Shown here: positions 29,718-48,001 of the stretch, one piece after another
Numbering within the stretch: position 1 is the first letter of the stretch
Layout: each line of letters starts with the position of its first letter
NCBI GenBank assembly: GCA_947447355.1
Contig: CANFJF010000020.1
Span: 1-51,885, forward strand
Direction of reading: 5' to 3'
DNA: 51,885 bases
Origin: Comamonadaceae bacterium
Lineage (GTDB): Bacteria; Pseudomonadota; Gammaproteobacteria; Burkholderiales; Burkholderiaceae_C
Notes under the pieces: model-generated
Told to the model about the DNA's origin: nothing
The model's database searches: none
What the model saw: only the letters and a program-made list of their open reading frames with translations
Made by a program: the position numbers and the translations under genes

Positions 29718-29767
29718 TATTTCAAAATTTCTATTTTTATTCCTCTTTTCATCAAGGCGAACATCTC

Positions 29768-30622: not shown

Positions 30623-30682
30623 ATGGGTGGTGCGCTCTCGCCTGATTTGATGAACTGAACCACAAACTGCACAGGAAATCCC

Positions 30683-31603: not shown

Positions 31604-31658
31604 GTTGACTGAGAAGTCAGTTGTTAATCGTCATAAATCAAAATGCTGGAGACAAAAA

Positions 31659-32864: not shown

Positions 32865-32870
32865 ATATCC

Positions 32871-32908: not shown

Positions 32909-32941
32909 TTTTCACTCACTTGAAACTTCCAAGGCATTTAT

Positions 32942-33823: not shown

Positions 33824-34800
33824 ATATCAATTCTAAATACGGTATCGCAATCGCCACGCTGTTCGCGCTGTCGCTACCCTTCTTGGCGGATGGAAATCGC
33901 TTCTTGGCGTTTGTCCTTGGCATGACTTTCATCAGCCTGCTGTGGGCCACAGGGATGAACCTGATGTACGGATTCGTCGGTTTGATGCCGCTGATGTTTG
34001 CCGGTGTTGCCGGTATTGCCGCTTATGCCATGGTGTATTTGACGCGAACGGCCGGATGGTCTTTTTGGTTGGCCATGCCTGCCGCCTCACTGATCGCATC
34101 CATCGCCGGGGTGGCGCTGGGTTTGCCCGCATTAAGGCTCAAAGGTTTTTACTTTACGCTTTGCTCCCTGGTCATCCAATCCGTGCTGACACTGGCGTTC
34201 ATCTTTTTTCCTAAATTCACGAACGGTGATACCGGTATCAACCAGATAGAACCACCAGACTGGTTTGGGGGCTTGGTCCTCAAAGGCGGTCACTTAGATT
34301 TTGTCGTGGCCTTTATTGCTGTTGCGGGCATACTTTTTTGCACTTGGCTCACACGAACACGGCTTGGCCAGAAATTTGTGGCGGTCCGTGAGGATGATGT
34401 GCTGGCAGATTCAATCGGTATCAACGTCGTGCGGACCCGGATCACAGCGTTTTTTATCGTTTCACTTTATGCGGGCATTGGCGGGTGCTTGTACGCCACC
34501 TATGTCGGATTTATTTCGCCGCGTGCATTTGATGTCTTGATGTCGCTCAACATTTGGTTATTTGTCGCTTTCGGTGGTCGGGGCACGATCATCGGGCCGA
34601 TTATTGGGACCATCATTCTTGCCCCGATTCCTTTCCTGTTGCAGGATCTTCAGGCTTTCAAGGAAATCCTGTCCGGCCTGCTGATCATCGTCGTCACGCT
34701 CATCATGCCGGGGGGTATTTACGGCGCGTTTCGCATGTGGTTGTCTAAAAAAACGAGTCGTCCTGGTGAAGCCAGTAGCGTTCAGGAGCAGCGAGTATGA
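33820..34800 (+). CDS. HAAT ABC transporter permease, LivM type
   Basis: A LivM-type permease of 326 residues. It opens MNINSKYGIAIATLFALSLP and carries the family segment GMNLMYGFVGLMPLMFAGVAG, with the coupling segment AFGGRGTIIGPIIG near the end. Its ATG overlaps the LivH stop by four bases, and its own stop overlaps the next ATPase start by four, a tight co-translated array. Confidence 0.87.
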   Translation: MNINSKYGIAIATLFALSLPFLADGNRFLAFVLGMTFISLLWATGMNLMYGFVGLMPLMFAGVAGIAAYAMVYLTRTAGWSFWLAMPAASLIASIAGVALGLPALRLKGFYFTLCSLVIQSVLTLAFIFFPKFTNGDTGINQIEPPDWFGGLVLKGGHLDFVVAFIAVAGILFCTWLTRTRLGQKFVAVREDDVLADSIGINVVRTRITAFFIVSLYAGIGGCLYATYVGFISPRAFDVLMSLNIWLFVAFGGRGTIIGPIIGTIILAPIPFLLQDLQAFKEILSGLLIIVVTLIMPGGIYGAFRMWLSKKTSRPGEASSVQEQRV

Positions 34801-35510
34801 GATTGCTGGAAGTTGATAACTTGTCTAAGCGCTTTGGTGGGGTGGCGGCTTTACGCAATGTTACAGCCCATTCTGTTGAGGGTGAAACGCTTGGGATGAT
34901 CGGTCCTAATGGCTCTGGAAAAACGACCTTTGTCAACATTGTCAGTGGTCATGTCAAGGGCGATGTCGGCAGTCTGATCTTTGGCGGTGTCGATATCGCA
35001 GGCATGTCGCCCCATCAATTGGCTGCGGTCGGTTTGTGCCGTACGTACCAGGCGGTGCGTGTTTTCTCTGCTCTGTCAACGCAAAAAAACATCGACAACG
35101 CCCGTCTGCTGCTGGCGCACAGAGGCCTTGACCATGCTGAATTAAAAGAGTTGATCGAATGGCTGCGTCTGGACCGCCATCTGGACAAGGATGCGGGCAG
35201 TCTCACGCTTTTTGAGCAACGTCGACTCGAACTGCTGATGCGTTTGGTCCTCAAGCCGCGTTTAATCATGCTGGATGAACCGGTCGGAGGTCTGGCCGTG
35301 ACAGAAGTCATCGAGATGATCAAGCTGCTGCAGGAACTCAAGGGGCGTTGTTCAATTTTCGTGATTGAGCACACGATGCGTGTGATACGTGAATTAGCGA
35401 ATCGAGTCATTGTGTTGATAGCCGGCGAAAAAGTTGCCGATGGCCCTCCGTCTGAAATTCTTCAAAATCAGCAGGTCATCGATGAATATCTGGGGACTAC
35501 CCATGCTTGA
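34797..35510 (+). CDS. HAAT ABC transporter ATPase, LivG type, degenerate signature motif
   Basis: An ATPase subunit of 237 residues. Walker A GPNGSGKTT, Walker B LIMLDEPVGG and H-loop VIEHTMR are intact, but the signature reads LTLFEQRRLE where the family has LS-x-G-Q-Q-RRLE, so the key glycine is phenylalanine. In ABC heterodimers one of the two ATP sites can be degenerate while the other works; the LivF partner (35503) has a normal LSGGQQQM. It overlaps both neighbours in the operon. Confidence 0.85.
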   Translation: MRLLEVDNLSKRFGGVAALRNVTAHSVEGETLGMIGPNGSGKTTFVNIVSGHVKGDVGSLIFGGVDIAGMSPHQLAAVGLCRTYQAVRVFSALSTQKNIDNARLLLAHRGLDHAELKELIEWLRLDRHLDKDAGSLTLFEQRRLELLMRLVLKPRLIMLDEPVGGLAVTEVIEMIKLLQELKGRCSIFVIEHTMRVIRELANRVIVLIAGEKVADGPPSEILQNQQVIDEYLGTTHA

Positions 35511-36207
35511 CGTACGCGACCTCGTTGTCCGCTATGGACCTTTTCTGGCCTGCGATCGAATCAATATTCATGTCAAGCCTGGCGAAATAGTCGGCGTCAT
35601 TGGCCCGAACGGGGCCGGTAAAAGTTCCATCGCACGGGCGATTGCCGGCCTTGTCACACCCACTGAAGGTCAGATTGATTTTCTAGGGGAGTCCATCCTG
35701 GGTATCGAGTCACATCTCCTGATTCGACGTGGCTTATCGCTGGTGCCTGAAGGACGGGGACTTTTTGCGCACATGTCGATTGAAGAAAATTTGTTGATGG
35801 GCGGTTATTCATTAAAGAATCCTGTCCGGCGCAGCGAATTAATGGCTCGATGCTATGACCTCTTTCCAATACTCAAACAACGCCGGCGCCAGATTGCCGG
35901 AACGCTCTCCGGCGGCCAGCAGCAAATGGTGGCGGTGTCGGTCGGACTCATGGGAGACCCCAAGCTTTGCATCTTTGATGAGCCCTCTTTGGGGCTGGCA
36001 CCGATCGTGATTCAGCAGATTGGTGAAACGCTTCAAGCGATGCGAAAGCTGGACTTGACGGTGCTGTTGATCGAACAAAATGCCAAGCTCGCCAGTACGG
36101 TGGCAGATCACATTTATGTGATCTCCGCAGGCCGCACGCAATACCACGACACACCTCAAGCGCTTCTAGAAAATCCAGATGTACTAGAGAAGTTTCTGAG
36201 TGCATGA
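35503..36207 (+). CDS. HAAT ABC transporter ATPase, LivF type
   Basis: The last gene of the hydantoinase/transport cluster, 234 residues. Walker A GPNGAGKSS, signature LSGGQQQM, Walker B LCIFDEPSLGLAP and switch LLIEQNAK are all canonical. The ATG at 35503 overlaps the LivG stop by eight bases; earlier in-frame starts lie deep in the LivG gene. It converges with the leftward operon, 80 bases away, and I see no strong terminator in that gap. Confidence 0.88.
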   Translation: MLDVRDLVVRYGPFLACDRINIHVKPGEIVGVIGPNGAGKSSIARAIAGLVTPTEGQIDFLGESILGIESHLLIRRGLSLVPEGRGLFAHMSIEENLLMGGYSLKNPVRRSELMARCYDLFPILKQRRRQIAGTLSGGQQQMVAVSVGLMGDPKLCIFDEPSLGLAPIVIQQIGETLQAMRKLDLTVLLIEQNAKLASTVADHIYVISAGRTQYHDTPQALLENPDVLEKFLSA

Positions 36208-36287: not shown

Positions 36288-37055
36288 TCAATATTTTTCA
36301 GCCAGCAGGCCCATGCCCGGCAGTTTGTCCTGGATGCCAAGACGCCGCAGGGCATGCCAGTAGGTCGCCACGTTGACACCGATCAGCGGCTTGCCAAATT
36401 TTTCTTCAATTTGTGGCGTCATGGCAGACACGGGCAGGTTGGTGCCAACATGCACCAGCACCTCCGCGTCTGAGTGGTCTACATCTGCAAAGCCTTGCAT
36501 GATCTGCGCTGCCGTGAATCGGGCCACGGCGGTGGGGCCTGTTGACTTGAGTCCATGGGTCGATGTCACTTCATAGCCGCACGATCTGAAGAAGTCGGCA
36601 ATCATCATGTCGGCCGGCGGCCAATAGGGCGTCAAGATTGCAATTTTGCGTGGCTGGCCAATAGCTTTCAGGCCTGCCAACACGGCGCGCGAGGGCGTGA
36701 CAAAAGGCACGCCACAGAGTTTTTCCAGCCGCTCTTCTTCGGCCAGTGCACGTTGGCCATCACCGCGAAAGGAGTGAATCGAATGACCGTGCGCGACCAC
36801 ATGGGGCTCGCAGACCATCACCAACTGCAGTGCAGCCTCGAGGTTGCCTTCTTCAGTTTCCAACGCTTTTTTGTAGGCCACTTGGTCATCGTAGGGACGC
36901 GGCGGCAAGTGCATGCGGGTCACATGGTTGGTCACGCCCGGTGGTCGCATGGCCTCCATTTCAGGCTGCACGATGGTGTTGGTGGCCGGAACGACCACAG
37001 CCACTTTGGCTCGGGTCGCGAGTGCATCGAACGTTGGCTTGCGATGTTCAATCAT
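36288..37055 (-). CDS. Maleate isomerase/Asp-Glu racemase superfamily protein lacking both expected cysteines
   Basis: A 255-residue protein with the maleate cis-trans isomerase/arylmalonate decarboxylase fold pattern, opening KVAVVVPATNTIVQPEMEAM. Enzymes of the group use one or two cysteines: the first expected position reads His-Gly-His-Ser (about 89-92) and the second Val-Gly-Thr-Asn (about 203-206). Cysteines at other places (82, 114, 159) do not fall in those motifs. The chemistry may therefore differ, or the protein may bind without catalysing. It starts four bases after the TctC stop with GGAG in front, and is the last gene of the operon. Confidence 0.75.
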   Translation of the reverse strand: MIEHRKPTFDALATRAKVAVVVPATNTIVQPEMEAMRPPGVTNHVTRMHLPPRPYDDQVAYKKALETEEGNLEAALQLVMVCEPHVVAHGHSIHSFRGDGQRALAEEERLEKLCGVPFVTPSRAVLAGLKAIGQPRKIAILTPYWPPADMMIADFFRSCGYEVTSTHGLKSTGPTAVARFTAAQIMQGFADVDHSDAEVLVHVGTNLPVSAMTPQIEEKFGKPLIGVNVATYWHALRRLGIQDKLPGMGLLAEKY

Positions 37056-37059
37056 GACG

Positions 37060-38049
37060 TCACTCCATTTTGAGATTGCTGGCTTTGGCGGCTTCTGACC
37101 AGACGGCAAGGTCTGATTTCAGCGTATCCAAAAACTGCGCCGGGGTGTCGCCAATCGGGTCGACGCCCATCTGCCCGAGTTTCGCGATGGTGTCGGGCAG
37201 GGCGACGGCATCTTTCACGGCCAGCGCGATACGGTTGATGACGGCTGGTGGCGTTCCGGCGGGTGCCACCAAGCCATTCCAAGTGACCGTCTTGAAGCCG
37301 GGAAAGCCGGATTCAGCAACCGTCGGAACATCGGGCAGTTGGCGTGCACGCTGGCCACTAGAGACACCGATGATGCGGATCTGTCCGCCAGCGGCATGCG
37401 GAGCAAGTTCAGAGAGATTGCCAAAATACATTTGCACCTGACCGCCCAGCAAGTCGGTCACCGCCGGGCTGCCGCCCTTGTAGCTGATGTGGGTCATGTC
37501 GATGTTGGCACGCTTCACAAAGAGTGCCGCCGACAGGTGCGAAACACTGCCTGAGCCACCCGATGCGTAGTTCAATTTACCGGGATTCTTTTTCACAAAA
37601 TCCGCCAGCTCTTTGGCGTTGTTGGCCGGCACCGATTTGTGGACCGCCATCACAAACGGGTTGCTGCCGACGATGCTGATGGGCGTGAAGTCACGCAGCG
37701 GGTCGAAATTGGTTTTGGTGATGGTTGGCAGGATCGCCAAGACAGGCATGGCGGCCATCATCAGGGTATAGCCATCAGGGGTGGACTTGGCCACCAGGTC
37801 GGCGGCAATGGCACCGCCCGCGCCGGCCCTGTTTTCGATCAGCACGGGCTGGCCCAATGATTGGGTCAGGCGCTCGGCAGTGAGCCGCGCGATGCCGTCG
37901 GTATTGCCGCCAGCCGCAAACGGCACGATGATTCTGATCGGCTTTTGCGGCCAAGCGGCGGGTTGTGCCTGGCTGAACGTCGACAGCGCAGTGAGAGATA
38001 CGAGCACGGTCATCTGGACGAAAGAGCTTGGGCTAAAGCGACGGGTCAT
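37060..38049 (-). CDS. TctC/Bug-family periplasmic binding protein
   Basis: A 329-residue Bug-type (tripartite tricarboxylate transporter) binding protein. After the secretion signal (cleavage near STFSQAQPA) come the family landmarks WPQKPIRIIVPFAAGGNTDGIAR, VENRAGAGG-like IENRAGAGGAIAAD and the late PDVPTVAESGFPGF. No TctA or TctB membrane genes are nearby, as is common in Burkholderiales, which have many orphan Bug proteins. It may serve a distant membrane pair or act as a sensor. Bug ligands are mostly carboxylates. Confidence 0.9.
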   Translation of the reverse strand: MTRRFSPSSFVQMTVLVSLTALSTFSQAQPAAWPQKPIRIIVPFAAGGNTDGIARLTAERLTQSLGQPVLIENRAGAGGAIAADLVAKSTPDGYTLMMAAMPVLAILPTITKTNFDPLRDFTPISIVGSNPFVMAVHKSVPANNAKELADFVKKNPGKLNYASGGSGSVSHLSAALFVKRANIDMTHISYKGGSPAVTDLLGGQVQMYFGNLSELAPHAAGGQIRIIGVSSGQRARQLPDVPTVAESGFPGFKTVTWNGLVAPAGTPPAVINRIALAVKDAVALPDTIAKLGQMGVDPIGDTPAQFLDTLKSDLAVWSEAAKASNLKME

Positions 38050-38083
38050 GAAAGCTCCTTGGGTAAGACTTGAGGGTCGAGCA

Positions 38084-39304
38084 TCAAGTGATGGCGTTGG
38101 CGCGCTTGATGCTGTTGATCATGGAAGACATGAGCAGATAGGCTCGGGTTTTCTCAGGGTCTTGTGCCACGGTGCGTAACTCGTCAAACCGAGCCAGCCG
38201 TTTGGTCAGATCCTTTTCTTCGAGGTTCTCTTTGTTTTTGATGGAGATGTTCTGCACATATTCCATCGCCACCGTTCGGCGCTGGCGCTCATACAGGTCA
38301 AGCAGGTCGGCATTGGCATCACCTTGGAACACGCGGGCAAGTTTGTCGCCGAGATTGACCGCATCGTGAATGCCGCTGTTCAGACCAAAGCCACCGAGCG
38401 GGTTGTTGACATGCGCTGAGTCACCTGCCAGCAGCACGCGCCCGACCCGAAACTGGTTGGCAACGCGCTGATGAACCCGGTAGACGCTTTGGTGAACGAT
38501 CGGGTAGTGATCAGTGTCCGGTGCGCCAATGGCGCGGTTGATGGCCCGCTGTGCGAACGGTGCGGCCAAGACCTCGTCATCGCTCAATTCTTGTCCAACG
38601 GGCAAGGTCATGCGCCACAGGCCGGGCGGGCCTTTGTCGGGCATCCTGAAAAAGGCGATCCATTGCTCCGGGTCGCTGACGTAGGCGTTGTCTGCGTAGC
38701 CGAGTGGTTCAAAGTCAAACGTCGTGCTGACCACGCTGTATCGTTCGGGCCAGGTGTAGCCGTCAAATTCGATCTGCGCCGCTTTGCGCACCGGGCTTTT
38801 TCCGCCGTCCGCGCCGATCACCCAACTGGCGCGCAGCATCGTGTCGCCTTGCGGATGGCGGGCTTGTACCGTGACCTCATCGGGGTGTTGCGTGAGGCCG
38901 ATGAACTCATGCGAAAACCTCACCTCGGCATGCGGGTAGGCTGCCAATTTTTCAAGCAGGATAGGCGTCAGTCGGTGCTGCTCTAAGTGCAAACGAAACG
39001 GGTAGGGCGTGTCGTTTTGAAGTGCTGACAAGTCCCACTCGACAATCAAGCCATGCTCGCGGTCGCGTGATTGCCAGCGCTCCACCTGAATGCCCACTTC
39101 CAGCATGGCATCGGCCACGCCATCGGGTTGCAGCATTTCGATGGTCGGTGGGTGAAAGGTGCCGGCACGCAAGTCAAGGGTGGTGCCAGGCTCGGCCTCA
39201 ATGACGAGGACCGGGACGCCCCGGCGCGCCAATTCCAGCGCGCAAAGCAGCCCGACAGGGCCTGCGCCCACAATCAGAACGGGCAGAGTTGAAGTTTGTG
39301 ACAT
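38084..39304 (-). CDS. FAD-dependent aromatic monooxygenase
   Basis: A 406-residue class A flavin hydroxylase (UbiH/PheA/MhpA-like). The N-terminal Rossmann motif VGAGPVGLLCALELARRG, the middle GADGGKSPVR (DG motif) and GDSAHVNNPLGGFGLNSG (GD motif) bind FAD and NAD(P)H. It is shorter than MhpA (about 550) and lacks the thioredoxin-like C-terminal domain. The ATG at 39304 immediately precedes the Rossmann strand. It would hydroxylate an activated, usually phenolic or N-heteroaromatic, ring; the substrate of this operon is unknown. Confidence 0.86.
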   Translation of the reverse strand: MSQTSTLPVLIVGAGPVGLLCALELARRGVPVLVIEAEPGTTLDLRAGTFHPPTIEMLQPDGVADAMLEVGIQVERWQSRDREHGLIVEWDLSALQNDTPYPFRLHLEQHRLTPILLEKLAAYPHAEVRFSHEFIGLTQHPDEVTVQARHPQGDTMLRASWVIGADGGKSPVRKAAQIEFDGYTWPERYSVVSTTFDFEPLGYADNAYVSDPEQWIAFFRMPDKGPPGLWRMTLPVGQELSDDEVLAAPFAQRAINRAIGAPDTDHYPIVHQSVYRVHQRVANQFRVGRVLLAGDSAHVNNPLGGFGLNSGIHDAVNLGDKLARVFQGDANADLLDLYERQRRTVAMEYVQNISIKNKENLEEKDLTKRLARFDELRTVAQDPEKTRAYLLMSSMINSIKRANAIT

Positions 39305-39330
39305 CGATGCTTGGGTGGATTTTCTGCAGG

Positions 39331-40110
39331 TCAAACGGGGGAGGCAAACGACTGGCCGCCGTCGACATTGAGCACGGTCCCAGAGAGATAGCCTGACAGG
39401 GGTGAGCAGCTGAAGACGGTCAGGTCGGCAATTTCTGCCGGCTCCGTCATGCGGCCAAAGGGCAGGCCTGCGGTGAGCTCCAGCCAACGATTTTCATCGC
39501 CTAATTTTTTGCTGGCTTGTAGGCGCAACATGCTTTCCATGCGGTCGCTTCGCGTCGGTGACGGGTTGATGCCGAAAACCCGCACGCCTTTGCGCGGGCT
39601 GGTTCCGCCGACGGCTTGTGTGAATGCCATGAGGGCGGCGTTGGCGGTTGATCCACAGATGTATTCAGCCCGCGGTGCGGCGCCCGCCATGCCGATGATG
39701 TTGCTGATCACACCGCTGCCGCGTTGTTCCATGACGGGCAACACAGCGCGAATCAGGTTGATGTAGCCAAAGAGTTTGAGCTCCCACGCCTGTCGCCATT
39801 TGTCGTCGCCCACATCGGCGAGTGAGCCACCCGGAATCGCGCCGGCGTTGTTGACCAGAATATCAATCTCGCCAGCACTCGACATCAAGTGTGCAATGCC
39901 CGCTTGGGTCGCGAGGTCGACCGCGATGGTCTGGGCGAGGATGCCGGTTTCTTGCTGGATGGAGAGCGCTGCTTTATCCAGTGACTCAGCGCTTCGTGAC
40001 ACTAAAACGGGGATGGCCCCTTCCTTGGCAAAGCGCATGGCGATGGCCAGACCAATGCCCTTCGAGCCACCGGTGATCACAGCGCGTTTTCCCTTGAGTT
40101 GCAAATCCAT
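39331..40110 (-). CDS. Atypical short-chain dehydrogenase/reductase
   Basis: A 259-residue SDR-fold protein. The cofactor loop ITGGSKGIGLA and the structural NNAG are intact, and the end YLSGTVLNVDGGQSF is classical. In the active site, however, the serine position reads NIIGMAG, and the YxxxK motif reads YICGS, so the catalytic lysine is serine. Either another residue takes over or the reaction is not a normal hydride transfer. The ATG at 40110 is preferred to the open stretch upstream. It lies between the deacetylase-like and monooxygenase genes. Confidence 0.8.
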   Translation of the reverse strand: MDLQLKGKRAVITGGSKGIGLAIAMRFAKEGAIPVLVSRSAESLDKAALSIQQETGILAQTIAVDLATQAGIAHLMSSAGEIDILVNNAGAIPGGSLADVGDDKWRQAWELKLFGYINLIRAVLPVMEQRGSGVISNIIGMAGAAPRAEYICGSTANAALMAFTQAVGGTSPRKGVRVFGINPSPTRSDRMESMLRLQASKKLGDENRWLELTAGLPFGRMTEPAEIADLTVFSCSPLSGYLSGTVLNVDGGQSFASPV

Positions 40111-40154
40111 GTCGACTATCCTTGTTGCGTTAATTGAATGCGATGCGTAAAAAA

Positions 40155-41036
40155 TCAGGTCGCTGCAGGCGGCGGAACTTGTGCGCTGAACCAGTCGGCG
40201 ATCTCGTGTCCCTGCTTGAAACACACGCCTGGTGTTTGCATCAGCAAGTCGAGCATTCCTTCGAAGGAGGCAAAGCGATGAGGCACGCCGATCAGGTGGG
40301 GATGCAAGCCGATCGCCAGCACCCGCGGGTGCTTGGGTGCTTCACGCACAAAGAGTGCCAGTGTCCGTTTCAGCCGTTCCAGCATTTCGTCTGAGGAATG
40401 CTTTTCGATGGCATAGATGATTGAGTCGTTGATTTCGAGGTTGTACGGCAGGCTGAGCAAGGGGCCGTTCGCCGTGGTCATCCAGTTGGGTACATCGTCA
40501 ACGACCCAGTCAAAGACGTAGTCAACCCCGGCAGCCTTGAGGGTTTCCGGTGTGTTGTGGCCTTCGCGCAGGCCAGGGCCGAGCCAGCCGCGGGGCCGGA
40601 TCCCGGTGAAAGATTCGATCATGTCCAGGCTGGTGCGAACCACTTCTTCTTCAGCGCCGGCATGGTTCAGGGACTTCTGGTGCATGCCGTGACCGATGAA
40701 TTCCCAACCTGCCGCGTGCATGGCTTCAGCGGCGCGCGGGTAGGCGTCAATCACGCCGGCGTTGATGCTGGTCGATGCGGGGAGACCGCGGTCTTGGATA
40801 GCGTCGAGGATGCGGGGCAGACCGCAGCGCATGCCGTAATCGGCCCAGCTGAAGTTGGGTACATCGGGCACGGTTTCCTTGCCATGCGGCGGCGTGATGA
40901 GCGTGCGCGGCATCGGTGCATCAAACTGCCAGTGCTCCACATTGACCACCAGATGCACCAAGATATTGCCCTCGGGCGGTGGCACCAAAGCAGGACCTTC
41001 ATTGGAAAAGCGATAGGGAATGCGGGGATTGGCCAT
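40155..41036 (-). CDS. Polysaccharide deacetylase-like (PuuE-type) amide hydrolase
   Basis: A 293-residue NodB-fold protein without signal peptide, so cytoplasmic. VVNVEHWQFD near the N-terminus carries acidic and histidine residues expected at the active site, and FIGHGMHQKSL supplies the HxxH-like metal motif. Cytoplasmic members of this superfamily, such as the purine-pathway allantoinase PuuE, open cyclic amides and do not act on sugars. In an operon with an amidase and a flavin monooxygenase, a C-N bond hydrolysis step is plausible. The substrate is unknown. Confidence 0.78.
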   Translation of the reverse strand: MANPRIPYRFSNEGPALVPPPEGNILVHLVVNVEHWQFDAPMPRTLITPPHGKETVPDVPNFSWADYGMRCGLPRILDAIQDRGLPASTSINAGVIDAYPRAAEAMHAAGWEFIGHGMHQKSLNHAGAEEEVVRTSLDMIESFTGIRPRGWLGPGLREGHNTPETLKAAGVDYVFDWVVDDVPNWMTTANGPLLSLPYNLEINDSIIYAIEKHSSDEMLERLKRTLALFVREAPKHPRVLAIGLHPHLIGVPHRFASFEGMLDLLMQTPGVCFKQGHEIADWFSAQVPPPAAT

Positions 41037-41047
41037 AGCGATGTCTT

Positions 41048-41797
41048 TCAGTGACGGATTTGACGAAGAATTTCCCGCTTCATGGTGTTGAAGTCTTCGG
41101 CCGTTGTGTCTTCAATCGTGCGGGGGCGTTTGAGCGCGACATCGATACGCGCTTGAATGCGGCCGGGTCGCGCCGACATAACGTAAATGGTGTCGGCTAA
41201 AAACAAGGCTTCATCAATGTCATGGGTCACAAACAAGATGGTGGGTTTGAGCTGTTGCCAGACCGACAGCAGCAGCTCTTGCATCGTCAGGCGCGTCTGT
41301 GCGTCGAGCGCGCCGAAGGGCTCGTCCATCAGCAACACTTGCGATCCCAGCGTCAGGATGCGCGCAATGCCGACCCGCTGGCGCATGCCACCGGACAGCT
41401 GCACAGGTAAATGGTGTTTGAAATCCGTCAGGCCAACGATCTTCAACATCTCGTTGGCGCGGTCTTCGTAGTCCTTGGCTTTGAGGCCTTGTGTTTTGGG
41501 GCCGAAAACCACGTTTTCCCAGACGCTGAGCCAAGGAAATAAAGCGGCTTCTTGAAAAACAACGCCACGGTCTGGGCCCGGTTTGTCGATGGTTTTTCCG
41601 TGCACCGTCAACGTGCCGTTGCTGACCTGTTCAAAACCGGCCAGCAAGTTCAGCAGCGTTGATTTACCGCAACCTGAAGGTCCTAGCAAGGCGACGAATT
41701 CGCCTGACTTGATCGTTAGATCTATTTTGTCGAGTGCATGAACCGGTGGCTCTGTCGGGTAAATTTTGTCGAGTTTGTCGATGTGGATGGCGGTCAT
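41048..41797 (-). CDS. NitT/TauT-family ABC transporter ATPase
   Basis: A 249-residue ATPase of the nitrate/taurine/sulfonate group. Walker A GPSGCGKST, Q-loop VFQEAALFPWLSVWENV, signature LSGGMRQRVGIA, Walker B VLLMDEPFGALD and H-loop VTHDIDEAL are complete. The ATG at 41797 is chosen; a TTG three codons upstream is the only earlier option. It starts five bases after the permease stop. With the permease and binding protein upstream it makes a full importer. Confidence 0.92.
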   Translation of the reverse strand: MTAIHIDKLDKIYPTEPPVHALDKIDLTIKSGEFVALLGPSGCGKSTLLNLLAGFEQVSNGTLTVHGKTIDKPGPDRGVVFQEAALFPWLSVWENVVFGPKTQGLKAKDYEDRANEMLKIVGLTDFKHHLPVQLSGGMRQRVGIARILTLGSQVLLMDEPFGALDAQTRLTMQELLLSVWQQLKPTILFVTHDIDEALFLADTIYVMSARPGRIQARIDVALKRPRTIEDTTAEDFNTMKREILRQIRH

Positions 41798-41802
41798 GGT
41801 GC

Positions 41803-42603
41803 TCAATGGTTTTGAAGGATGCGCCAGCGAAGAACCCGCCGTTCGCTGAGGACAATCAGGCGATCGCTGAGGTAGCCCATGGCACCGATAGAGACCATGT
41901 CAGCCAGCACGATGTCCATGCGACCGACGTAGTAGGCGTCCCACAGGACATAGCCCAAGCCTGACTTCACTGCGACCATTTCGGAGACGATCACGGCTGT
42001 CCAGGAGATGCCCAAGCCAATCCGCAGACCCGTGAAAATAGACGGCATGGCCGAGGGGAAAACCACCCGTCGCAAAATTTGGCTGCGGCTTGCGCCCATC
42101 ATCAGTGCCGCCCGCATCAGGTTGCGTTCAACATCCCGTGCGCCTTGCGTGGTGTTGACGACGATGGCGTAAAATCCACCCAGGAAAATCAGAAAAATAG
42201 AGCCCAGATTACTGATGCCAAACAAGGCAATCGAAAATGGCAGCCAAGCGGTGATAGGGATCGGCCGCAGGCATTGAATCATCGGATCGAACAGCTGAGA
42301 CGCCAGACGGCTCCAGCCGATCAAGAGCCCCAGCGGCACGCCCAGTAGCACGGCCAGCGCGAAACCCTGGACCACGCGCAGGCTGGAGTTTTGGACGTTG
42401 GCCAGCCAAGTTCCGCTGTAGGGATTGAGGCCCATGCCAGCGGAGCCGAAGACCCAGTCATTCCAGCCTGCTATAACGGCCAAGGGCGTCGGAACGATGC
42501 CGGCCATGTCGGGCTGACTGGCAGCGAACTGCCAGAAGACCAAAACGGCCGCCGGAACCAGTAAGCCCTGGATCAGGAATTTCAAACGAAGCATGAAATT
42601 CAC
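41803..42603 (-). CDS. NitT/TauT-family ABC transporter permease
   Basis: A 266-residue permease of the SsuC/TauC type with about six helices. The EAA coupling loop is ALMMGASRSQILRRVVFPSAMPSIFTGL. I give the GTG at 42603, which overlaps the binding-protein stop as GTGA; an ATG at 42594 is an equally possible start (263 residues). It belongs to the importer with the genes on either side. Confidence 0.88.
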   Translation of the reverse strand: MNFMLRLKFLIQGLLVPAAVLVFWQFAASQPDMAGIVPTPLAVIAGWNDWVFGSAGMGLNPYSGTWLANVQNSSLRVVQGFALAVLLGVPLGLLIGWSRLASQLFDPMIQCLRPIPITAWLPFSIALFGISNLGSIFLIFLGGFYAIVVNTTQGARDVERNLMRAALMMGASRSQILRRVVFPSAMPSIFTGLRIGLGISWTAVIVSEMVAVKSGLGYVLWDAYYVGRMDIVLADMVSIGAMGYLSDRLIVLSERRVLRWRILQNH

Positions 42604-43577
42604 TGCTTGATCTCTCGAGCCATCGAATCGTCATAGAGCGCGGCCGCTTCTGCGCCAACGTCTTTTTGAACGATCCCTTGTTTGAATGCAGCTTCGGCCA
42701 ACAGGCGCACTTGCTCTTTGGTCAGCACACCACCAAGCTTGATTATTTTGGCTGACTCTTGCGTGACGGTAAGTGGCAAACCTGTGTACTTGGCGTAAGC
42801 GTCTGCGAACAATGCATTATTTTTCGCCATCTTTTCTTCTGCATTCAGATAGACCCACAGAAAACGACGAACGGCTTCACGCTTGTTGGTCATGGCATCA
42901 CGCGACGCTGCCAGCATGCCAAGTTCGGCGCCCACTGATTTGGACTGGCTGTATTCCAGACCTTTCGCAAAATACGCATCACCTTCGGCGACGGCTTGCG
43001 ATTCAAACGGCTCCCAAAGCACCATGGCGTCAATGTCGCCGCGCTTGATGGCTTGAATGAAGGCGGTGCCGCCGCCTTGAATATTCACCGGTGTGAAGCT
43101 GTTGTAGGGAATGCCGCGCTCCACCAGCGTCATGGCAAATTGGAACCAGACAGCCGAGCCGGGGGCAATCCCGATGCGCTTGCCGGCGATGTCTTTCCAG
43201 TCATTGATGGTCACGCCTTTGCGGACCACCAGGTTCTTGGCTGAGCCGGCCACACCGGTCAGGCCGATCAAGTTGCGGCTGCCTTGCGATGCCGCAATGG
43301 CGAGATCGCCAGGGCCGACCGCCGAGACGTCAACGGTGTTGGACAACAGCGCCGTGCGTGCGTCGGCATAGCGAACGAACTCTGCGCGCTTGACATCAAT
43401 GTTGAACTTCTTGAGTTCTTCTTCAATGTTGAGGATGGGCGACAAATGGCCGACTTTCACAAAACCGATGGTCAGCGTTTCGCGCTGCGCCAGTGGCGCA
43501 GGTGCCGGGCCGATGGCCTGCACCAGACTCGTGAAGGCCGTCAACGTGACGGCGGCTAGGGCGGTACTGAGTTTCAT
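42600..43577 (-). CDS. NitT/TauT-family ABC transporter binding protein
   Basis: A 325-residue periplasmic binding protein of the SsuA/TauA group. Signal peptide MKLSTALAAVTLTAFTSLVQA, then the mature opening ETLTIGFVKVGHLSPI; VDVSAVGPGDLAIAASQG and GKRIGIAPGSAVWFQF are typical ligand-site segments. The ATG at 43577 has AGGAG eight bases upstream, better than the GTG three codons before. Ligands of the group include sulfonates, nitrate, thiamine precursors and aromatic acids. A 98-base gap, with nothing recognisable in it, separates it from the hydratase gene. Confidence 0.88.
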   Translation of the reverse strand: MKLSTALAAVTLTAFTSLVQAIGPAPAPLAQRETLTIGFVKVGHLSPILNIEEELKKFNIDVKRAEFVRYADARTALLSNTVDVSAVGPGDLAIAASQGSRNLIGLTGVAGSAKNLVVRKGVTINDWKDIAGKRIGIAPGSAVWFQFAMTLVERGIPYNSFTPVNIQGGGTAFIQAIKRGDIDAMVLWEPFESQAVAEGDAYFAKGLEYSQSKSVGAELGMLAASRDAMTNKREAVRRFLWVYLNAEEKMAKNNALFADAYAKYTGLPLTVTQESAKIIKLGGVLTKEQVRLLAEAAFKQGIVQKDVGAEAAALYDDSMAREIKQ

Positions 43578-43675
43578 GTTTAACACTCCTGTTTCGATGG
43601 ATAAAAGGTCGCTGTGGCTCGAGAACTAACGCGGAAAACGAAATGGAAAATATCGATGGCAAGGCGCTGAAGACG

Positions 43676-44452
43676 TTAACGCCCCACGAAGCGCGCCGGA
43701 CGTTTTTCGGCGAAGGCCTGGCGACCTTCGGTGTAATCCTGACTTTCAAAGCAGGTCTTGACGGCCTGCGCTACTTTCTCAGCGTCGGACTCAGACGAGC
43801 CGGCCAACACGGTCAGAAAAGCCAGCTTAGCGGCGGCAATCGTCAGCGGCGCGTTGGCGCTTATTTGTGCGGCAGTCTCCGCTGCGTGCAAAAAGCAATC
43901 GTCTTGCACACTGCTGACCAAGCCGATCTTCAACGCATCTTGTGCATCGCAGACGCGCGCGGTGTAAAACAATTCGCTGGCATTGGCCACGCCTAAAACA
44001 TCGACCATGCGCTTGACGCCTTTGAGGGCGTAGCCCAGACCTAAGCGGGCCGCGGGCATACGGAACTTGGCGGTTTTTGAAGCGTAGCGCAGATCGCAAG
44101 CCAACGCCAGCCCCAGACCGCCGCCGTAGCAGATGCCACTGATGGCGGCAATCACGGGGCGGGGAAATCCGGCCAGCGCGGTTTGGGCTTCATCCACAGC
44201 ACGGTCGTAGGCGACGACGCTTGCCGGGCTGTTGCGCTGCTCGCCAAACTCAGAGATGTCGGCGCCAGAGACAAAGGCCCGATCGCCATCGCCGCGCAAG
44301 ACCACGGCACGCACAGCCGCATTGTTTTTCAATTCTCCCAGCAGGGCTGCCAGCTGCTGCCACATGGCGAGCGACATGGCGTTGAAGCGGCCTTCATTGG
44401 ACAGAACGATCGTGGCCACATGGGCTTCGAGGGTGTAGGTGACGGTTCCCAT
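43676..44452 (-). CDS. Enoyl-CoA hydratase/isomerase family protein
   Basis: A 258-residue crotonase. Oxyanion-hole segments are AFVSGADISEFGE and AISGICYGGGLGLALA; the RMPAARLGLGYALKGVKRM segment lacks the glutamate found in hydratases of the EG-P type, so hydratase activity is not assured and another crotonase reaction is possible. The ATG at 44452 comes four bases after the CoA-transferase stop. A longer in-frame opening to 44560 lies inside that gene and is rejected. Confidence 0.85.
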   Translation of the reverse strand: MGTVTYTLEAHVATIVLSNEGRFNAMSLAMWQQLAALLGELKNNAAVRAVVLRGDGDRAFVSGADISEFGEQRNSPASVVAYDRAVDEAQTALAGFPRPVIAAISGICYGGGLGLALACDLRYASKTAKFRMPAARLGLGYALKGVKRMVDVLGVANASELFYTARVCDAQDALKIGLVSSVQDDCFLHAAETAAQISANAPLTIAAAKLAFLTVLAGSSESDAEKVAQAVKTCFESQDYTEGRQAFAEKRPARFVGR

Positions 44453-44456
44453 GGTG

Positions 44457-45653
44457 TCAGACCACGCTGTCGGTGTGAAATTGCTGAATTTCGTCAGCCG
44501 AGTAACCCGCTTCTTGCAGGACTTCGTCGGTGTGTTCGCCCCAGCCAGGCGCGGGCGCAACGACTTTGGACGGCGTCCGCTCCAAGGTCACGGGTTGCGT
44601 GATGTAGTGCATTTCTTTTCCAAAGTTGGTCATGAGGGTGGTCGTGACGCCGAGGTGCTTGACTTGCTCGTCTTCGAAGACCTGGGGCACGGTGTAGACC
44701 GGACCGGCTGGAACGCCGGCTTCATTCAGCAGATCGACCCACACAGCCACCGTCTTGGGTTTGAAAATAAGGGCCAGCGCCTCGTTCAGGCGTTCCCGGT
44801 GTTTGACGCGCAGTGGCTCGTCAAGGAACTCGGGGTCCGTCAACCATTCGGGCCGATCGATCAGTTGGCACAAGCGCACCCAGTTGCCTTCGCCAGATGC
44901 GCCGAGGTTGAAGACGCCGTCGCTTCCTTCGAACAGCCCCATGGGGCTGCTGGTCGGATGGTTGTTGCCGACCTGTACGGGAATATCTTGGTCGTTCAAA
45001 TAACGTGCCGCTTGAAAGTCCATCATGGCAATTTGAGAATGCAAGAGCGAGGCGTGAACCCACTGGCCTTTGCCGGAGACTTCACGCTCAAGCAGCGCAG
45101 TCAGGATGCCTAGCGCGGTGTACAGGCCGGCGCTCATGTCGGCGACGGCCAAGCCGGCTCGCACAGGGCCTGATTCGGCATGACCGGTGACGGACATCAA
45201 GCCGCCCATGCCCTGCAAAATCTGGTCAAAGCCGGGACGCCAGGCGTAAGGCCCATCTTGGCCAAAGCCGGAAATGCTGGCCAGGATGATGCGTGGGTTG
45301 ACCGCTGCCAGCGCGGCATAGTCGACGCCGAGTTTTTTCTTGACGTCCGGCCGCCAGTTCTCGACCACCACATCGGCATCTTTGACGAGCCGCATCAGGA
45401 TGTCTAGGGCGCCCGGTTTTTTGAGATTCAGCGTCATCGAGCGCTTGTTGCGGTTGATGTTTTGAAAGTCACCGCCTTGCCGGTTCGCCGCGAACATGGC
45501 TTCATTGGGATCAATGCCTGGTGGGGGCTCGATGCGAATCACGTCGGCACCAAAGTCCGTCAGCATGCGCACGCAATTAGGACCGGCGCGGACCCTTGAA
45601 AGATCGAGCACGCGAAATCTTGACAGTGCTTGAGACGCTTGAATTTTGGGCAT
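44457..45653 (-). CDS. CaiB/BaiF family CoA-transferase
   Basis: A class III CoA-transferase of 398 residues. The opening RVLDLSRVRAGPNCVRMLTDFGADVIRIEPP and NRNKRSMTLNLKKP are the family marks, and the catalytic aspartate is in VADMSAGLYTALG (about residue 170). It would move CoA onto a carboxylic acid intermediate and feed the hydratase-like enzyme downstream. It lies seven bases after the amidase stop in the same operon. Donor and acceptor are unknown. Confidence 0.92.
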   Translation of the reverse strand: MPKIQASQALSRFRVLDLSRVRAGPNCVRMLTDFGADVIRIEPPPGIDPNEAMFAANRQGGDFQNINRNKRSMTLNLKKPGALDILMRLVKDADVVVENWRPDVKKKLGVDYAALAAVNPRIILASISGFGQDGPYAWRPGFDQILQGMGGLMSVTGHAESGPVRAGLAVADMSAGLYTALGILTALLEREVSGKGQWVHASLLHSQIAMMDFQAARYLNDQDIPVQVGNNHPTSSPMGLFEGSDGVFNLGASGEGNWVRLCQLIDRPEWLTDPEFLDEPLRVKHRERLNEALALIFKPKTVAVWVDLLNEAGVPAGPVYTVPQVFEDEQVKHLGVTTTLMTNFGKEMHYITQPVTLERTPSKVVAPAPGWGEHTDEVLQEAGYSADEIQQFHTDSVV

Positions 45654-45660
45654 TTAAAAG

Positions 45661-47004
45661 TTAACTTTGCAAGTGTGAAAAATGTCGTGTGATGCCGCAG
45701 TGTCCAAAGCGTTTGATTTCAAGCCCATCCGCAAAGGCTAGCAAGGTTCGTTCCTCAAACGGTCGGGCGATGAATTGAGCGCAGATGGGCAGGCCGCGTG
45801 CATCGCTGGCAATCGGCATTACCAGCGATGGAAAGCCCAGGTAATTGACCCAACCCATGAAACTGTGCAGGCTGAGCAGTTGCTTGACGTCGAAGTCAGT
45901 GTTGCCAGGGGTGACCACCGACCCGTCCGGCACCGGCTGCGGCAGCGCTGGCAGCATCAGAATGTCGTGGTCTTTCAGATGCGCGTTGAAAAAAGTGCGC
46001 GCGCGTGAGCCGCGGTCACGCACTGCCGCCTGATACCAGTCCAGCGGCATGACCAAGCCTGGCAAAGCGACGGCCTGAACGCTGGTGGACAGCGTGTTGT
46101 TCAGCAACCCGCTCTGGTGCGTGGTGGCTGCTTCATGGTGCAGCAGGATCTCTGACAGCGCGGTCAACAGGCGGTGCTCGGCAAGTTGACCGATGCGTTG
46201 TGTGACGCTGCACTCGTCTGCCAGCGCCGTGAGTGCCGCAGCAACGCTGTCATGCAGTCCGGTCTCAGGAATCCACGCTTTCAGGCGGGGTTCTGCCAGG
46301 CTGGGTCGTGTGTTGCTGCCGGGCGTTAAGGCGTCCAGCAACTGCTGTGCATCGGCGGCTGAGCGCGCCAGCAGTCCAATGCTGTCGAGTGACGGCGCCA
46401 AAGGATGGACGCCTTCCTGACTGATCAGGCCATGCGTGGTTTTGAGTCCGAGGAGTCCACACGTTGCTGCAGGAATGCGCACGGAGCCGGCGGTGTCTGT
46501 GCCCATCGCGCCATAGGCGATTTCGCTGGCCACGGCCACAGCACTGCCACTGGAGGAGCCGCCGACCACGGCCGCTGGGTTGAGCGGGTTGATACAGCGC
46601 GCAAAGTGGGCGTTGTCGCCGGTGGCACCACAGGCGTATTCGGCCATGACAACGCTGGCTAACTGGCTGGCACCTGCATTTTGCAACTGCTGAATAGCGG
46701 ACGCTGCCGCCAAACCGGGCACAGACCGGCCGTGGTCATGGCCCAAGCCCGGCGCTCTGCCGGCGGTGTTGAAGATGTCTTTGTGCGCCAGACCGATGCC
46801 CGCCAGAGCTTGGTGTTTGTCGGCTTGCGCTGCATCGCTGACAACCTCATCCGCTGTATCGGCCATGATGTGCACCACGCAGTGATAACGCGGGTCCAGT
46901 GTTTTCAGTCGTTGCCGCTGTGCGCTCAGGGACTCCTGTCGAGACAGCTTCCCAAGCGCCAGCGCAAGCTGTAACCCCGTGAGCGTGGCGGGCAAGGTGG
47001 TCAT
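45661..47004 (-). CDS. Amidase signature family hydrolase
   Basis: A 447-residue amidase. The Ser-cisSer-Lys triad is visible: lysine in GIGLAHKDIF, cis-serine in GGSSSGSAVAVA and the nucleophile in GTDTAGSVRIPA. Its start overlaps the small upstream gene by four bases (ATGA). Relatives such as GatA and AtzE need a small helical partner; the coupled upstream product might play that part. It would release ammonia or an amine from an amide made or imported by this operon. Confidence 0.9.
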   Translation of the reverse strand: MTTLPATLTGLQLALALGKLSRQESLSAQRQRLKTLDPRYHCVVHIMADTADEVVSDAAQADKHQALAGIGLAHKDIFNTAGRAPGLGHDHGRSVPGLAAASAIQQLQNAGASQLASVVMAEYACGATGDNAHFARCINPLNPAAVVGGSSSGSAVAVASEIAYGAMGTDTAGSVRIPAATCGLLGLKTTHGLISQEGVHPLAPSLDSIGLLARSAADAQQLLDALTPGSNTRPSLAEPRLKAWIPETGLHDSVAAALTALADECSVTQRIGQLAEHRLLTALSEILLHHEAATTHQSGLLNNTLSTSVQAVALPGLVMPLDWYQAAVRDRGSRARTFFNAHLKDHDILMLPALPQPVPDGSVVTPGNTDFDVKQLLSLHSFMGWVNYLGFPSLVMPIASDARGLPICAQFIARPFEERTLLAFADGLEIKRFGHCGITRHFSHLQS

Positions 47005-47246
47005 CGGGCGAGGCTTTGCAAGGTGGTTGAGAAAGCAACTTCTGGATCAGCTGACGGGCTGCTGGCCAGAGCGCTGTGGGCAGCTGGTTGCAATCGGCTC
47101 AGCGCTTTCACCAAGCGCAGCACCTCAGATTCAGTCGGTGCGCTGTCGCGCCTGTTCAGCCCTGCGCGCACCTGCTCAGCCAGAAGCTCGGTTTGCGAAC
47201 TGAATGGCGCGCTTTGTGGCGGCGGGATGGATGAATAATTGTGCAT
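47001..47246 (-). CDS. Small protein translationally coupled to the amidase
   Basis: An 81-residue protein I do not recognise. It begins MHNYSSIPPPQSAPF, a proline-rich lead, then two likely amphipathic helices (TELLAEQVRAGLNRR and ESEVLRLVKALSRLQPAAHS), and ends in a Ser/Ala-rich tail. It is the first gene of the 12-gene leftward operon, and its stop overlaps the amidase ATG. Size, helix content and coupling recall GatC and AtzG, small partners of GatA/AtzE amidases, but I see no sequence signature of those families. A distinct small subunit or chaperone is possible. Confidence 0.6.
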   Translation of the reverse strand: MHNYSSIPPPQSAPFSSQTELLAEQVRAGLNRRDSAPTESEVLRLVKALSRLQPAAHSALASSPSADPEVAFSTTLQSLAR

Positions 47247-47257
47247 ATCTAATTTGT

Positions 47258-47277
47258 CTGTAAATATAAATATACAG
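47258..47277. promoter_or_regulatory. Candidate GntR operator in the divergent promoter region
   Basis: CTGTAAATATAAATATACAG, 20 bases, of which eight of ten symmetric pairs match (five outer pairs are perfect). It lies 11 bases before the leftward operon's first ATG and 37 before the GntR start at 47315. A leftward TTGATA (47293-47288) upstream of it could be a -35 box. Size and position suit a GntR/FCD dimer site that controls both directions. Confidence 0.5.
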
Positions 47278-47314
47278 TATGTGTGGATATCAAGCAATGT
47301 GGGAAACTCTAAGA

Positions 47315-48001
47315 ATGCGAAGCACGAAGACCGTATTTACCAAAGCCAGCGACAAAATTCGGACTGAAATTGAAGCCCTTATTCAGTCTGGAACCCTGCT
47401 CCCCGGGGATGCGATTGACGAGGCAGGGCTGGCCAGTCAGCACGGCGTATCGCGAACGCCCATCCGTGAAGCCATGCTACAGCTGCAGGCGCAGGGCCTC
47501 CTGACCAGCTTGTCACGCGGCGGCATGGTTGTCGCCAAAATGGATTTGCAGCAGTTGTTGTCGTTGTGGGAGTTGCTGGCCGAGCTGGAGGCGGTCGCCG
47601 CTCGTCTGGCTTGTCAGCGGATGACCCGTGATGAACTCGTGGCTATCGCCAATGCCAATGAGCAGGGGCGAGCAGCGATGGAGCTTGATGATATGGCCGC
47701 TTGGCAGGAGCGCAACCTTGCCTTTCACGAGTTGATTTACCGTGCCACCCGAAACCCTTATTTGCGCCAGGAGGTATTACGCATTCGCGCGCGCACAGGG
47801 TTTTATCGTCAACATGCCTTTGGTGCTTTGGGGAAAATCAAGACGTCCTTCGAGCAACACCAGCGCTTGGTGGAGGCCTTTCAGGCGGGCGATGCTGACG
47901 CTGCTGCGGTTGCCATGGTGGCGCACATGCGGCCCGCCCGTGATGCGCAAGCGATGTCTGACTTCATCATCAACTTGCCCAAGGGCCTCAGCCTAGCTTG
48001 A
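47315..48001 (+). CDS. GntR-family regulator, FCD subfamily
   Basis: A 228-residue regulator. The N-terminal winged helix includes LASQHGVSRTPIREAMLQLQAQGLL, and the C-terminal FCD effector domain has LAFHELIYRATRNPYL with the histidine and acidic residues that usually hold a metal. The start is uncertain: ATGs at 47279, 47297 and 47315 are in frame; the first abuts the palindrome 47258-47277, so I take the last, which has GGGAA in front. It is divergent from the amidase operon and probably its local regulator. Confidence 0.87.
   Translation: MRSTKTVFTKASDKIRTEIEALIQSGTLLPGDAIDEAGLASQHGVSRTPIREAMLQLQAQGLLTSLSRGGMVVAKMDLQQLLSLWELLAELEAVAARLACQRMTRDELVAIANANEQGRAAMELDDMAAWQERNLAFHELIYRATRNPYLRQEVLRIRARTGFYRQHAFGALGKIKTSFEQHQRLVEAFQAGDADAAAVAMVAHMRPARDAQAMSDFIINLPKGLSLA

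Follow-up and report, generated by a model that had tools for sequence, protein, structure and literature searches.

Which compound does a bacterium consume with a gene block that joins an amidase, a coenzyme A (CoA)-transferase, an importer, a ring monooxygenase and a hydrolase of the PuuE fold? The question is raised by twelve leftward genes and one divergent regulator gene at positions 36288-48001 of contig CANFJF010000020.1 of a Comamonadaceae bacterium (assembly GCA_947447355.1). The whole 51,885 nucleotide stretch that was analysed, contig 20 of a 3.95 Mb genome split over 179 contigs, is called the window below. A sequence-only reading had seen in the block a single unit that combines flavin-dependent hydroxylation, C-N bond hydrolysis and a maleate-isomerase-like end step with a CoA-ester branch; the unit, the hydroxylation with C-N hydrolysis and the CoA-ester branch stand, and the maleate-isomerase step falls. 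The evidence narrows the block to ring opening of the imide or lactam type and a branched-dicarboxylyl-CoA finish. Our tentative model, which we hold with a little less than even confidence, is that the operon opens a nitrogen-containing ring by way of a cyclic imide, removes ammonia and finishes by a route of the methylsuccinyl/itaconyl-CoA type.

The block is a real and conserved finding. The open reading frame (ORF) call gave twelve leftward ORFs at 36288-47297, numbered g1 to g12 here, and a single ORF in the other direction at 47279-48001. For g1, g3, g4, g6-g9 and g12 the start was inferred from gene spacing and Shine-Dalgarno-like sequence, which markedly shortens five ORFs (g1 to 37055, g3 to 39304, g4 to 40110, g9 to 44452 and g12 to 47246). 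With these starts the run ends at about 47246, and adjacent genes overlap by 4 bases or sit at most 44 bases apart, apart from a widest gap of 98 bases between the crotonase (g9) and binding-protein (g8) genes. We predict a single operon with a divergent GntR gene. Profile scans (Pfam, NCBIfam) covered ten window proteins and confirmed the arylmalonate decarboxylase (AMDase)/maleate-isomerase, TctC, FAD_binding_3, short-chain dehydrogenase/reductase (SDR), Polysacc_deac_1/PuuE-like, SsuA/NMT1, crotonase, CoA-transferase III and amidase families; the ATP-binding protein, the permease and the GntR regulator were named from annotated homologues. The tight leftward layout, the family names of the ten scanned proteins and the proposal of one unit with its own regulator, which the loci of relatives show to be conserved, have all held.

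A search with g5 (E <= 1e-60) of 399 genomes of the order matched 38, the window's own included. Further block genes stand beside the g5 homologue in the four nearest other genomes (61-68% identity), and the next two homologues (52 and 48%) have no block genes alongside. The closest named matches, whose g5 is 98% identical, are in Polaromonas and Comamonadaceae metagenome-assembled genomes (MAGs; loci L048, L049 and L055). Scanning named genomes yielded 345 relatives; the best 80 formed the locus set, and the window proteins and recurrent extra genes were mapped on these loci and on 12 others. The complete recognisable set, with the small gene left out of the count, is present in 12 of the 80. 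For a subset of 39 loci, chosen because their flanks exceed 6.5 kb before the PuuE-like gene and 7 kb after it, and with presence meaning anywhere in the locus, the core comprises the CoA-transferase (36 loci), crotonase, permease and ATP-binding protein (34 each), binding protein (33), SDR (32), GntR regulator (31) and amidase (28), and a second cassette comprises the monooxygenase (17), TctC protein (17) and AMDase-like protein (19). Literature searches limited to open-licence papers, one of them too broad to carry much weight, found no characterised operon with this gene set among the papers listed, in line with the earlier statement that no pathway with it was known.

The versions of the locus are informative. 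Two Azospirillum plasmids keep the gene order of the amidase-to-SDR run. On a Variovorax replicon there are genes for GntR, the small ORF, the amidase, the CoA-transferase, the crotonase, the PuuE-like protein and MmgE, and none for the ATP-binding cassette (ABC) importer. The fullest version (L051, L054) runs GntR, amidase, CaiB, crotonase, ABC, PuuE, SDR, acyl-CoA dehydrogenase (ACAD), hydratase, lyase, monooxygenase, TctC, AMDase-like; L105 has the same set with the ABC genes rearranged. In eight loci (L089, L098, L100, L103, L105, L106, L108 and L116) the binding-protein gene is inverted and two genes, for a second SDR and a lysine/alanine-rich protein, are inserted before the permease.

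The ring-opening step is assigned to g5, the PuuE-like hydrolase of the polysaccharide-deacetylase fold (40155-41036, minus strand, as for all twelve genes). It matches PF01522 at 36.2 bits and scores 103.2 bits against the PuuE allantoinase model TIGR03212, far under the cut-off of 424.6; a role as allantoinase was rejected on that score. Its structure model (predicted local distance difference test, pLDDT, 84.0) fits PuuE best (3cl6, template modelling (TM) score 0.83), with HpPgdA (3qbu) at 0.72. HpPgdA, in the available part of PMC3084791, is a zinc enzyme with D14, H86 and H90, and PuuE binds no metal. Residues E34, H116 and Q120 of g5, whose pairing with HpPgdA is inferred from spacing, are invariant in 29 of 29 aligned sequences; with three more relatives added, one of them only 25% identical, this still holds for E34 and H116 and almost for Q120. 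The fold and the degenerate metal site together place g5 among the PuuE-fold small-substrate hydrolases, and sequence and model lead us to predict a cyclic imide/lactam hydrolase. Imide openers of this fold, proposed or known, are HxnM and a P. putida cyclic imide hydrolase resembling it (PMC9304392, in the sections available).

Three neighbours would flank that step. The amidase-signature hydrolase g11 (45661-47004; PF01425, 197.3 bits) is AtzE-like, with 194.2 bits against a cut-off of 461 for NF006631. Its Ser-Ser-Lys motifs and the Asp motif of the CoA-transferase look intact in alignments of relatives, and we take these to be the catalytic residues of the two families. The small protein g12 (47001-47246; 98 residues as an ORF) matches no Pfam or NCBIfam family. 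Of 34 operon amidase genes whose upstream sequence is long enough, 26 have a small ORF directly before them, recognised by a motif derived from the same data as were counted; likeness to AtzG is by position only (a 4-base overlap with g11), with no profile match. The SDR g4 (39331-40110; subfamily PRK06125) scores 361.9 bits against a cut-off of 261 for NF004779. All 56 sequences keep Tyr150 and none of them has the catalytic Lys (S, A or Y stands at position 154), with Asn or Ile/Val at the expected Ser; the classical combination of Tyr-xxx-Lys and Ser is absent.

In the hxn pathway of Aspergillus nidulans, as set out in the accessible part of PMC9304392, an SDR makes hydroxyglutarimide, a PuuE-fold cyclic imidase opens it and an amidase-signature enzyme frees ammonia. 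The block shares with it a flavin monooxygenase, an SDR, a PuuE-fold hydrolase and an amidase-signature amidase in the same inferred order, whereas hxn is fungal, has an alkene reductase and acts on a six-membered imide; the part of that paper available mentions neither a CoA-transferase nor a crotonase step. By analogy, a functional bacterial counterpart of the hxn steps is plausible, because the block has SDR, PuuE-like and amidase families in one predicted operon. The sequence of SDR, imidase and amidase mirrors the fungal nicotinate pathway and, with PnpA and HspB nearest to g3, bears out the earlier logic of flavin hydroxylation and C-N hydrolysis.

Pressed further, the likeness becomes an alternative in which the block is the bacterial counterpart of the fungal nicotinate pathway, taking a hydroxypyridine through six-ring hydroxyglutarimide to 2-hydroxyglutarate, with the CoA genes receiving a C5 straight-chain acid. 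The order of chemistry (HxnX/HxnV, the SDR HxnW, the PuuE-fold imidase HxnM and the amidase HxnN; PMC9304392, available part) fits, as do the PnpA and HspB affinity of g3 and the succinate-glutarate CoA-transferase that is the nearest NCBIfam model of the CaiB protein. We nevertheless judge it unlikely: a scan of ten window and ten accessory proteins shows no old-yellow-enzyme gene for the HxnT step, the Ser-Tyr-Lys residues given for HxnW in the same part of PMC9304392 are absent from the SDR, and the accessory ACAD, hydratase and lyase of relatives are closest to methylsuccinate/itaconate enzymes.

The same core enzymes also invite a comparison with purine breakdown. The enterobacterial hpx genes encode a PuuE-type enzyme, an AtzE-like amidase with a small partner and a flavin monooxygenase, all of which have likenesses here, and a ureide route yields glyoxylate or malonate-type acids. 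The block could then open a purine-, pyrimidine- or hydantoin-derived cyclic ureide with g5 and remove the carbamoyl nitrogen with the amidase and its small partner. That g5 lies nearer PuuE allantoinase than HpPgdA in sequence and fold, and that the nearest NCBIfam model of the amidase is AtzE, with a coupled small protein, suit this idea; scores far under the curated cut-offs for both g5 (103 of 425 bits) and g11 (194 of 461 bits) do not, and a CoA branch has no place in such a route, in which the CoA-transferase, ACAD, hydratase and lyase would have nothing to do. We regard it as very unlikely.

It is the CoA branch that gives our imide model its finish. The CaiB-type (family III) CoA-transferase g10 (44457-45653; PF02515, 387.4 bits) has dicarboxylate CoA-transferases as its nearest NCBIfam models (NF052585, 296.4 of 750 bits; NF041294, 255.8 of 700), and its best solved relatives are 10uh, named formyl-CoA transferase, and then 9br6, a succinate--hydroxymethylglutarate CoA-transferase. 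The crotonase-fold protein g9 (43676-44452; NF004781, 322.3 bits, cut-off 291) has both catalytic Glu residues replaced in alignment with 3kqf, which sets it apart from enoyl-CoA hydratases, and the altered motif is conserved across 35 sequences. Relatives supply more: the 80 loci contain an ACAD (48, by tblastn), a FAS1_DH-type hydratase (20), a CitE-type lyase (6), and an MmgE/PrpD protein and a second crotonase (24 each). The ACAD, hydratase and lyase genes lie between the SDR and monooxygenase genes or after the SDR gene. Hydratase and MmgE are mutually exclusive in the 39 loci (12 have one and 13 the other; Fisher p 0.003). The CoA-ester branch is therefore no add-on, with the transferase in 36 of 39 loci and ACAD, hydratase and lyase in relatives.

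A CaiB-type transferase, an ACAD, a hydratase, a lyase and MmgE make up the published itaconate/methylsuccinate cluster (PMC12290011 and PMC9875883, in their available parts). The former, in the part available, gives the order of PA0878-PA0886 and reports P. aeruginosa and C. necator enzymes assayed as methylsuccinyl-C4-CoA dehydrogenases. Our reference was the P. aeruginosa cluster (L162), which has the gene order of PA0878-PA0886. The RipC model NF038242 had been tried as a marker of the itaconate cluster and was dropped (36 of 200 genomes at E <= 1e-50, 0 of 200 reaching its cut-off); the P. aeruginosa cluster itself took its place. Among the 34 operon ACAD ORFs kept by the ORF caller, of which L094 contributes two from the opposite strand, 32 are 70-80% identical to the P. 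aeruginosa cluster ACAD (Mcd-type); those below 70% are a partial one in L091 (68.7%) and the second L094 copy (63.3%). Two solved structures are related to the operon hydratase at E <= 0.01, namely 8huc (MaoC_dehydrat_N) and 8khg (itaconyl-CoA hydratase, E 1.1e-54). Compared with the P. aeruginosa hydratase, five from operons reach 45-48% identity in global alignment and 12 give 40-46% locally, about the distance seen among Ich proteins assigned by context (46-54%, with one pair at 67%). The best solved match of the lyase is 8khl, and three operon lyases are 42-46% identical to the reference versus 46-55% within the family. Because of these ACAD, hydratase and lyase identities, the late steps resemble the dehydrogenation of methylsuccinyl-CoA followed by hydration and cleavage. 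As far as the available descriptions of the pseudomonad/Cupriavidus cluster (ich, mcd, mmgE, ict, ccl) go, the relatives share with it the ACAD, Ich- and Ccl-type enzymes, the CaiB-type CoA-transferase and, in some loci, an MmgE/PrpD protein; the block differs in adding a ring-opening hydrolase, an amidase, a monooxygenase and an SDR, and the window copy is without ACAD, Ich and Ccl.

The window's genome encodes these late steps on other contigs. Contig C72 carries a LysR-type gene followed by hydratase, ACAD and CoA-transferase genes (the last three 46, 77 and 70% identical to the P. aeruginosa proteins), and contig C37 carries MmgE (60%), lyase (46%) and TctC genes; by identity, these belong to the itaconate/methylsuccinate set. 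Against an operon ACAD, the nearest two ACADs of this genome are 73 and 70% identical and the next only 49%, and the clade is narrow because of this fall. Comparison across genomes points the same way, with the reservation that the Fisher tests ignore relatedness, that MAGs are numerous among the genomes and that part of the 150 order genomes have the operon themselves: 28 of 39 operon genomes have a hydratase (E <= 1e-50), compared with 37 of the 150 order genomes, and 26 of 27 carriers without an in-operon hydratase have a close ACAD, compared with 45 of the 150. Of those 27, 17 have a hydratase elsewhere; 11 have the ACAD in the operon, and 15 of the other 16 have it elsewhere.

Several observations weigh against this finish, beside the reservation just given. 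Three operon CoA-transferases are 34-38% identical to P. aeruginosa Ict (the window's is 34%), when Ict proteins assigned by context reach 64-77%, and four operon MmgE proteins are 30-36% identical to the P. aeruginosa methylsuccinate isomerase, with 60-68% within the group. On these identities the operon CoA-transferase and MmgE are different subfamilies from those of the itaconate cluster, not orthologues; activation would be the work of this other CoA-transferase, perhaps on a related acid or on the half-amide. The window's operon lacks ACAD, hydratase and lyase, as do its near twins L048, L049 and L055, and the lyase is present in only 6 of 80 loci. At E <= 1e-50 no hydratase was found in 10 of the 27 operon genomes that lack one in the operon, nor in the L123 genome, whose operon was scored as having it. 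The ACAD clade also occurs in a Deinococcus cluster and in a second cluster of the window's own genome, on contig C2. Finally, the monooxygenase module is absent from 22 of 39 loci and need not act on the core's substrate.

The Deinococcus plasmid cluster (L159, 2659-11175) encodes MmgE, two thiamine-diphosphate enzymes, the 5-oxoprolinase subunit PxpA, an ACAD, a CoA-transferase, a lyase, MaoC and an aldehyde dehydrogenase; its ACAD is 72-74% identical to four operon ones.

What, then, would the monooxygenase cassette contribute? Enzymes of the PnpA/HspB group add a hydroxyl group para to one already on the ring, whereby a side group is lost, and HspB acts in nicotine breakdown. The class A flavin adenine dinucleotide (FAD) monooxygenase g3 (38084-39304; PF01494) has PnpA (6ain, E 1.7e-69) and HspB (7da9, 6-hydroxy-3-succinoylpyridine 3-monooxygenase, E 2.7e-60) as its nearest solved relatives, with 4k5r next (E 1.5e-40); homologue names among the best 120 of 7520 matches are generic. 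Its partner g1 (36288-37055) passes the cut-off of the broader family PF17645 (60.4 bits) and falls below those of NF052327 (54.4 against 225 bits, the arylmalonate decarboxylase model) and TIGR02990. The g1 model (pLDDT 88.7) matches 4ix1, 4fq5 and 2xed best, with a TM score of about 0.8 to the AMDase/maleate-isomerase fold. With the catalytic Cys positions taken from an alignment with 4fq7, Cys82 is kept in 20 of 21 sequences and the second position is Gly (Gly204, 21 of 21). A maleate isomerase was rejected on that ground: the fold of the end step once proposed is present, but only one of two catalytic Cys residues is kept. With the SDR, the PuuE-like hydrolase and the crotonase this makes four enzymes with non-standard active sites, where at least two had been announced.

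Aerobic nicotine and nicotinate pathways use HspB or NicC, N-formylmaleamate and maleate isomerase. The block has in common with them an HspB-type monooxygenase and the AMDase/maleate-isomerase fold, and differs in the missing isomerase Cys and in having no ring-cleaving dioxygenase family among the scanned proteins. Membership of g1 in the arylmalonate decarboxylase Pfam family raises another idea, a malonate-type route in which g1 and the Glu-less crotonase act as decarboxylases; g9 does match methylmalonyl-CoA decarboxylase (1ef8, 102 bits) and NF008506 (164.2 bits against a cut-off of 257). Thirteen other solved crotonases outscore 1ef8 against g9, the accessory genes are unsuited to a malonate, and the single Cys of g1 is at another site than that of AMDase, whose sites we take to be Gly74 and Cys188, in agreement with mutant names among the structure matches of g1. 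Such a route seems to us most improbable.

All 17 monooxygenase loci carry the AMDase-like gene, and because of this g1 more likely belongs to a ring-processing module. Whether that module serves the core is a fair question. The cassette lies downstream, upstream (L073, L076, L085) or inverted (L110) relative to the core, and monooxygenase and one-Cys AMDase-like genes adjoin each other without the core on Thioclava and Novosphingobium plasmids, their AMDase-like proteins showing the same one-Cys pattern as g1. These facts, with the absence of the monooxygenase from more than half of the well-flanked loci, favour two unrelated modules, a core that reaches from the amidase to the SDR and a mobile cassette of monooxygenase, TctC and AMDase-like genes with a different compound as its target. 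We think this quite unlikely, given the shared strand and tight spacing in the window and the presence of the SDR in all 17 monooxygenase loci versus 15 of the 22 others (Fisher p 0.012). The alphaproteobacterial pairs (L131, 11775-16836; L132, 11807-13765) are likely a separate heteroaromatic pathway; the Thioclava pair adjoins isochorismatase-family and Asp/Glu-racemase genes.

Our imide model can be set out as follows. The NitT/TauT importer and the TctC protein would bring in the substrate or substrates, an N-heterocyclic compound. The PnpA/HspB-type monooxygenase, with its one-Cys AMDase-fold partner, would hydroxylate a hydroxylated N-heteroaromatic ring to give an imide, and the SDR would set the oxidation level; we infer the cyclic imide as an intermediate. 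The PuuE-like enzyme would open it to a half-amide, which the AtzE-like amidase and its small partner would split into ammonia and a dicarboxylate. The CaiB-type enzyme would form the CoA ester, the Glu-less crotonase may rearrange or decarboxylate it, and enzymes of ACAD, itaconyl-CoA-hydratase and citramalyl-CoA-lyase type, on other contigs in the window's genome and inside the operon in some relatives, would yield acetyl-CoA and a 2-oxoacid. The most economical substrate of g5 is a methyl-branched five-ring imide of the 2-methylsuccinimide or methylmaleimide type. The scheme fits most genes and leaves the SDR, the crotonase and the one-Cys protein without a defensible step.

A more specific version is a new bacterial pathway that leads from an N-heteroaromatic compound, plausibly a methylated hydroxypyrrole derived from tetrapyrroles, through a five-ring imide to methylsuccinyl-, mesaconyl- and citramalyl-CoA. 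Hydroxylation of a hydroxypyrrole would give a dihydroxypyrrole, a tautomer of succinimide, and a methyl-substituted succinimide would after ring opening and deamidation become methylsuccinate; characterised members of the accessory ACAD clade act on its CoA ester. We consider this version doubtful; its bold part is the pyrrole or tetrapyrrole origin, to which no analysis result points. If true, the operon would be a bacterial answer to the fungal HxnW-HxnM-HxnN steps with a new PuuE-fold imidase, and a second natural source of methylsuccinate. According to the available part of PMC12290011, genes for methylsuccinate use are widespread and the environmental origin of the compound was unclear until gut itaconate reduction was found. 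A cyclic-imide route would be a further source, and through it dissolved organic nitrogen would be tied to the central metabolism of Burkholderiales, Limnohabitans and Polaromonas among them. The block also marks out several subfamilies of enzymes whose active sites are altered, and a few substrates that can be tested.

Uptake genes occupy two parts of the block. The ATP-binding protein of the NitT/TauT-type importer (g6, 41048-41797; named from sequence and annotated Azospirillum neighbours) and the permease (g7, 41803-42594; sequence and annotated homologues) are preceded by the gene for an SsuA/NMT1-like periplasmic binding protein (g8, 42600-43577), which matches PF09084 and scores 102.3 bits on TIGR01728, below the cut-off of 163.5. 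The TctC-type periplasmic binding protein g2 (37060-38049; PF03401, 238.9 bits) has no TctA or TctB among the twelve genes.

The divergent GntR-family gene (47279-48001, plus strand; identified from the ORF, its sequence and a Variovorax homologue annotated GntR) probably starts a little downstream of 47279. A palindrome of the form TATAAATATATTTATA recurs there: 35 of the 42 GntR promoter gaps counted, the window's among them, have it with 4 mismatches or fewer, as do 41 of 1260 controls shuffled in two-base blocks. Its consensus was picked by eye from palindromes that as many as 18 of 46 gaps share, and the count was made in that same set. The seven gaps that miss it have 5, 5, 5, 7, 7, 8 and 8 mismatches; four gaps of 80 bases or fewer, those of L048, L049 and L055 among them, were left out of the count. 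The window copy at 47259-47274, with 3 mismatches, is the sole site in the window, and 0 of 100 shuffles have one; it is the predicted operator of the regulator in the divergent promoter gap. Its place upstream of the ATG at 47246 supports that start for g12.

The block is preceded by a second catabolic island (24828-36207, plus strand), which encodes hydantoinase/oxoprolinase subunits A and B, an IclR regulator, a hydrolase of the FAH family and an ABC importer of the branched-chain type. Its stretch from FAH to the Liv importer also adjoins the block in L048, and the island genes were not found in the available stretches of L049 or L055. The HyuAB-FAH-Liv island as part of the pathway is unsupported, with the block standing without it in those two loci. 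A C-terminal MmgE/PrpD fragment (23255-23827, plus strand) lies beside a pyrF-like gene, as does a 73% identical piece in L096, and is possibly a remnant of an MmgE-type version of the operon. Farther left, a Rieske ring-hydroxylating oxygenase alpha subunit gene stands beside an ORF that reads like a LysR-type regulator (20791-22605, minus strand). The whole 3.95 Mb genome has 32 amidohydrolase-2 family matches, 31 of them above the family cut-off.

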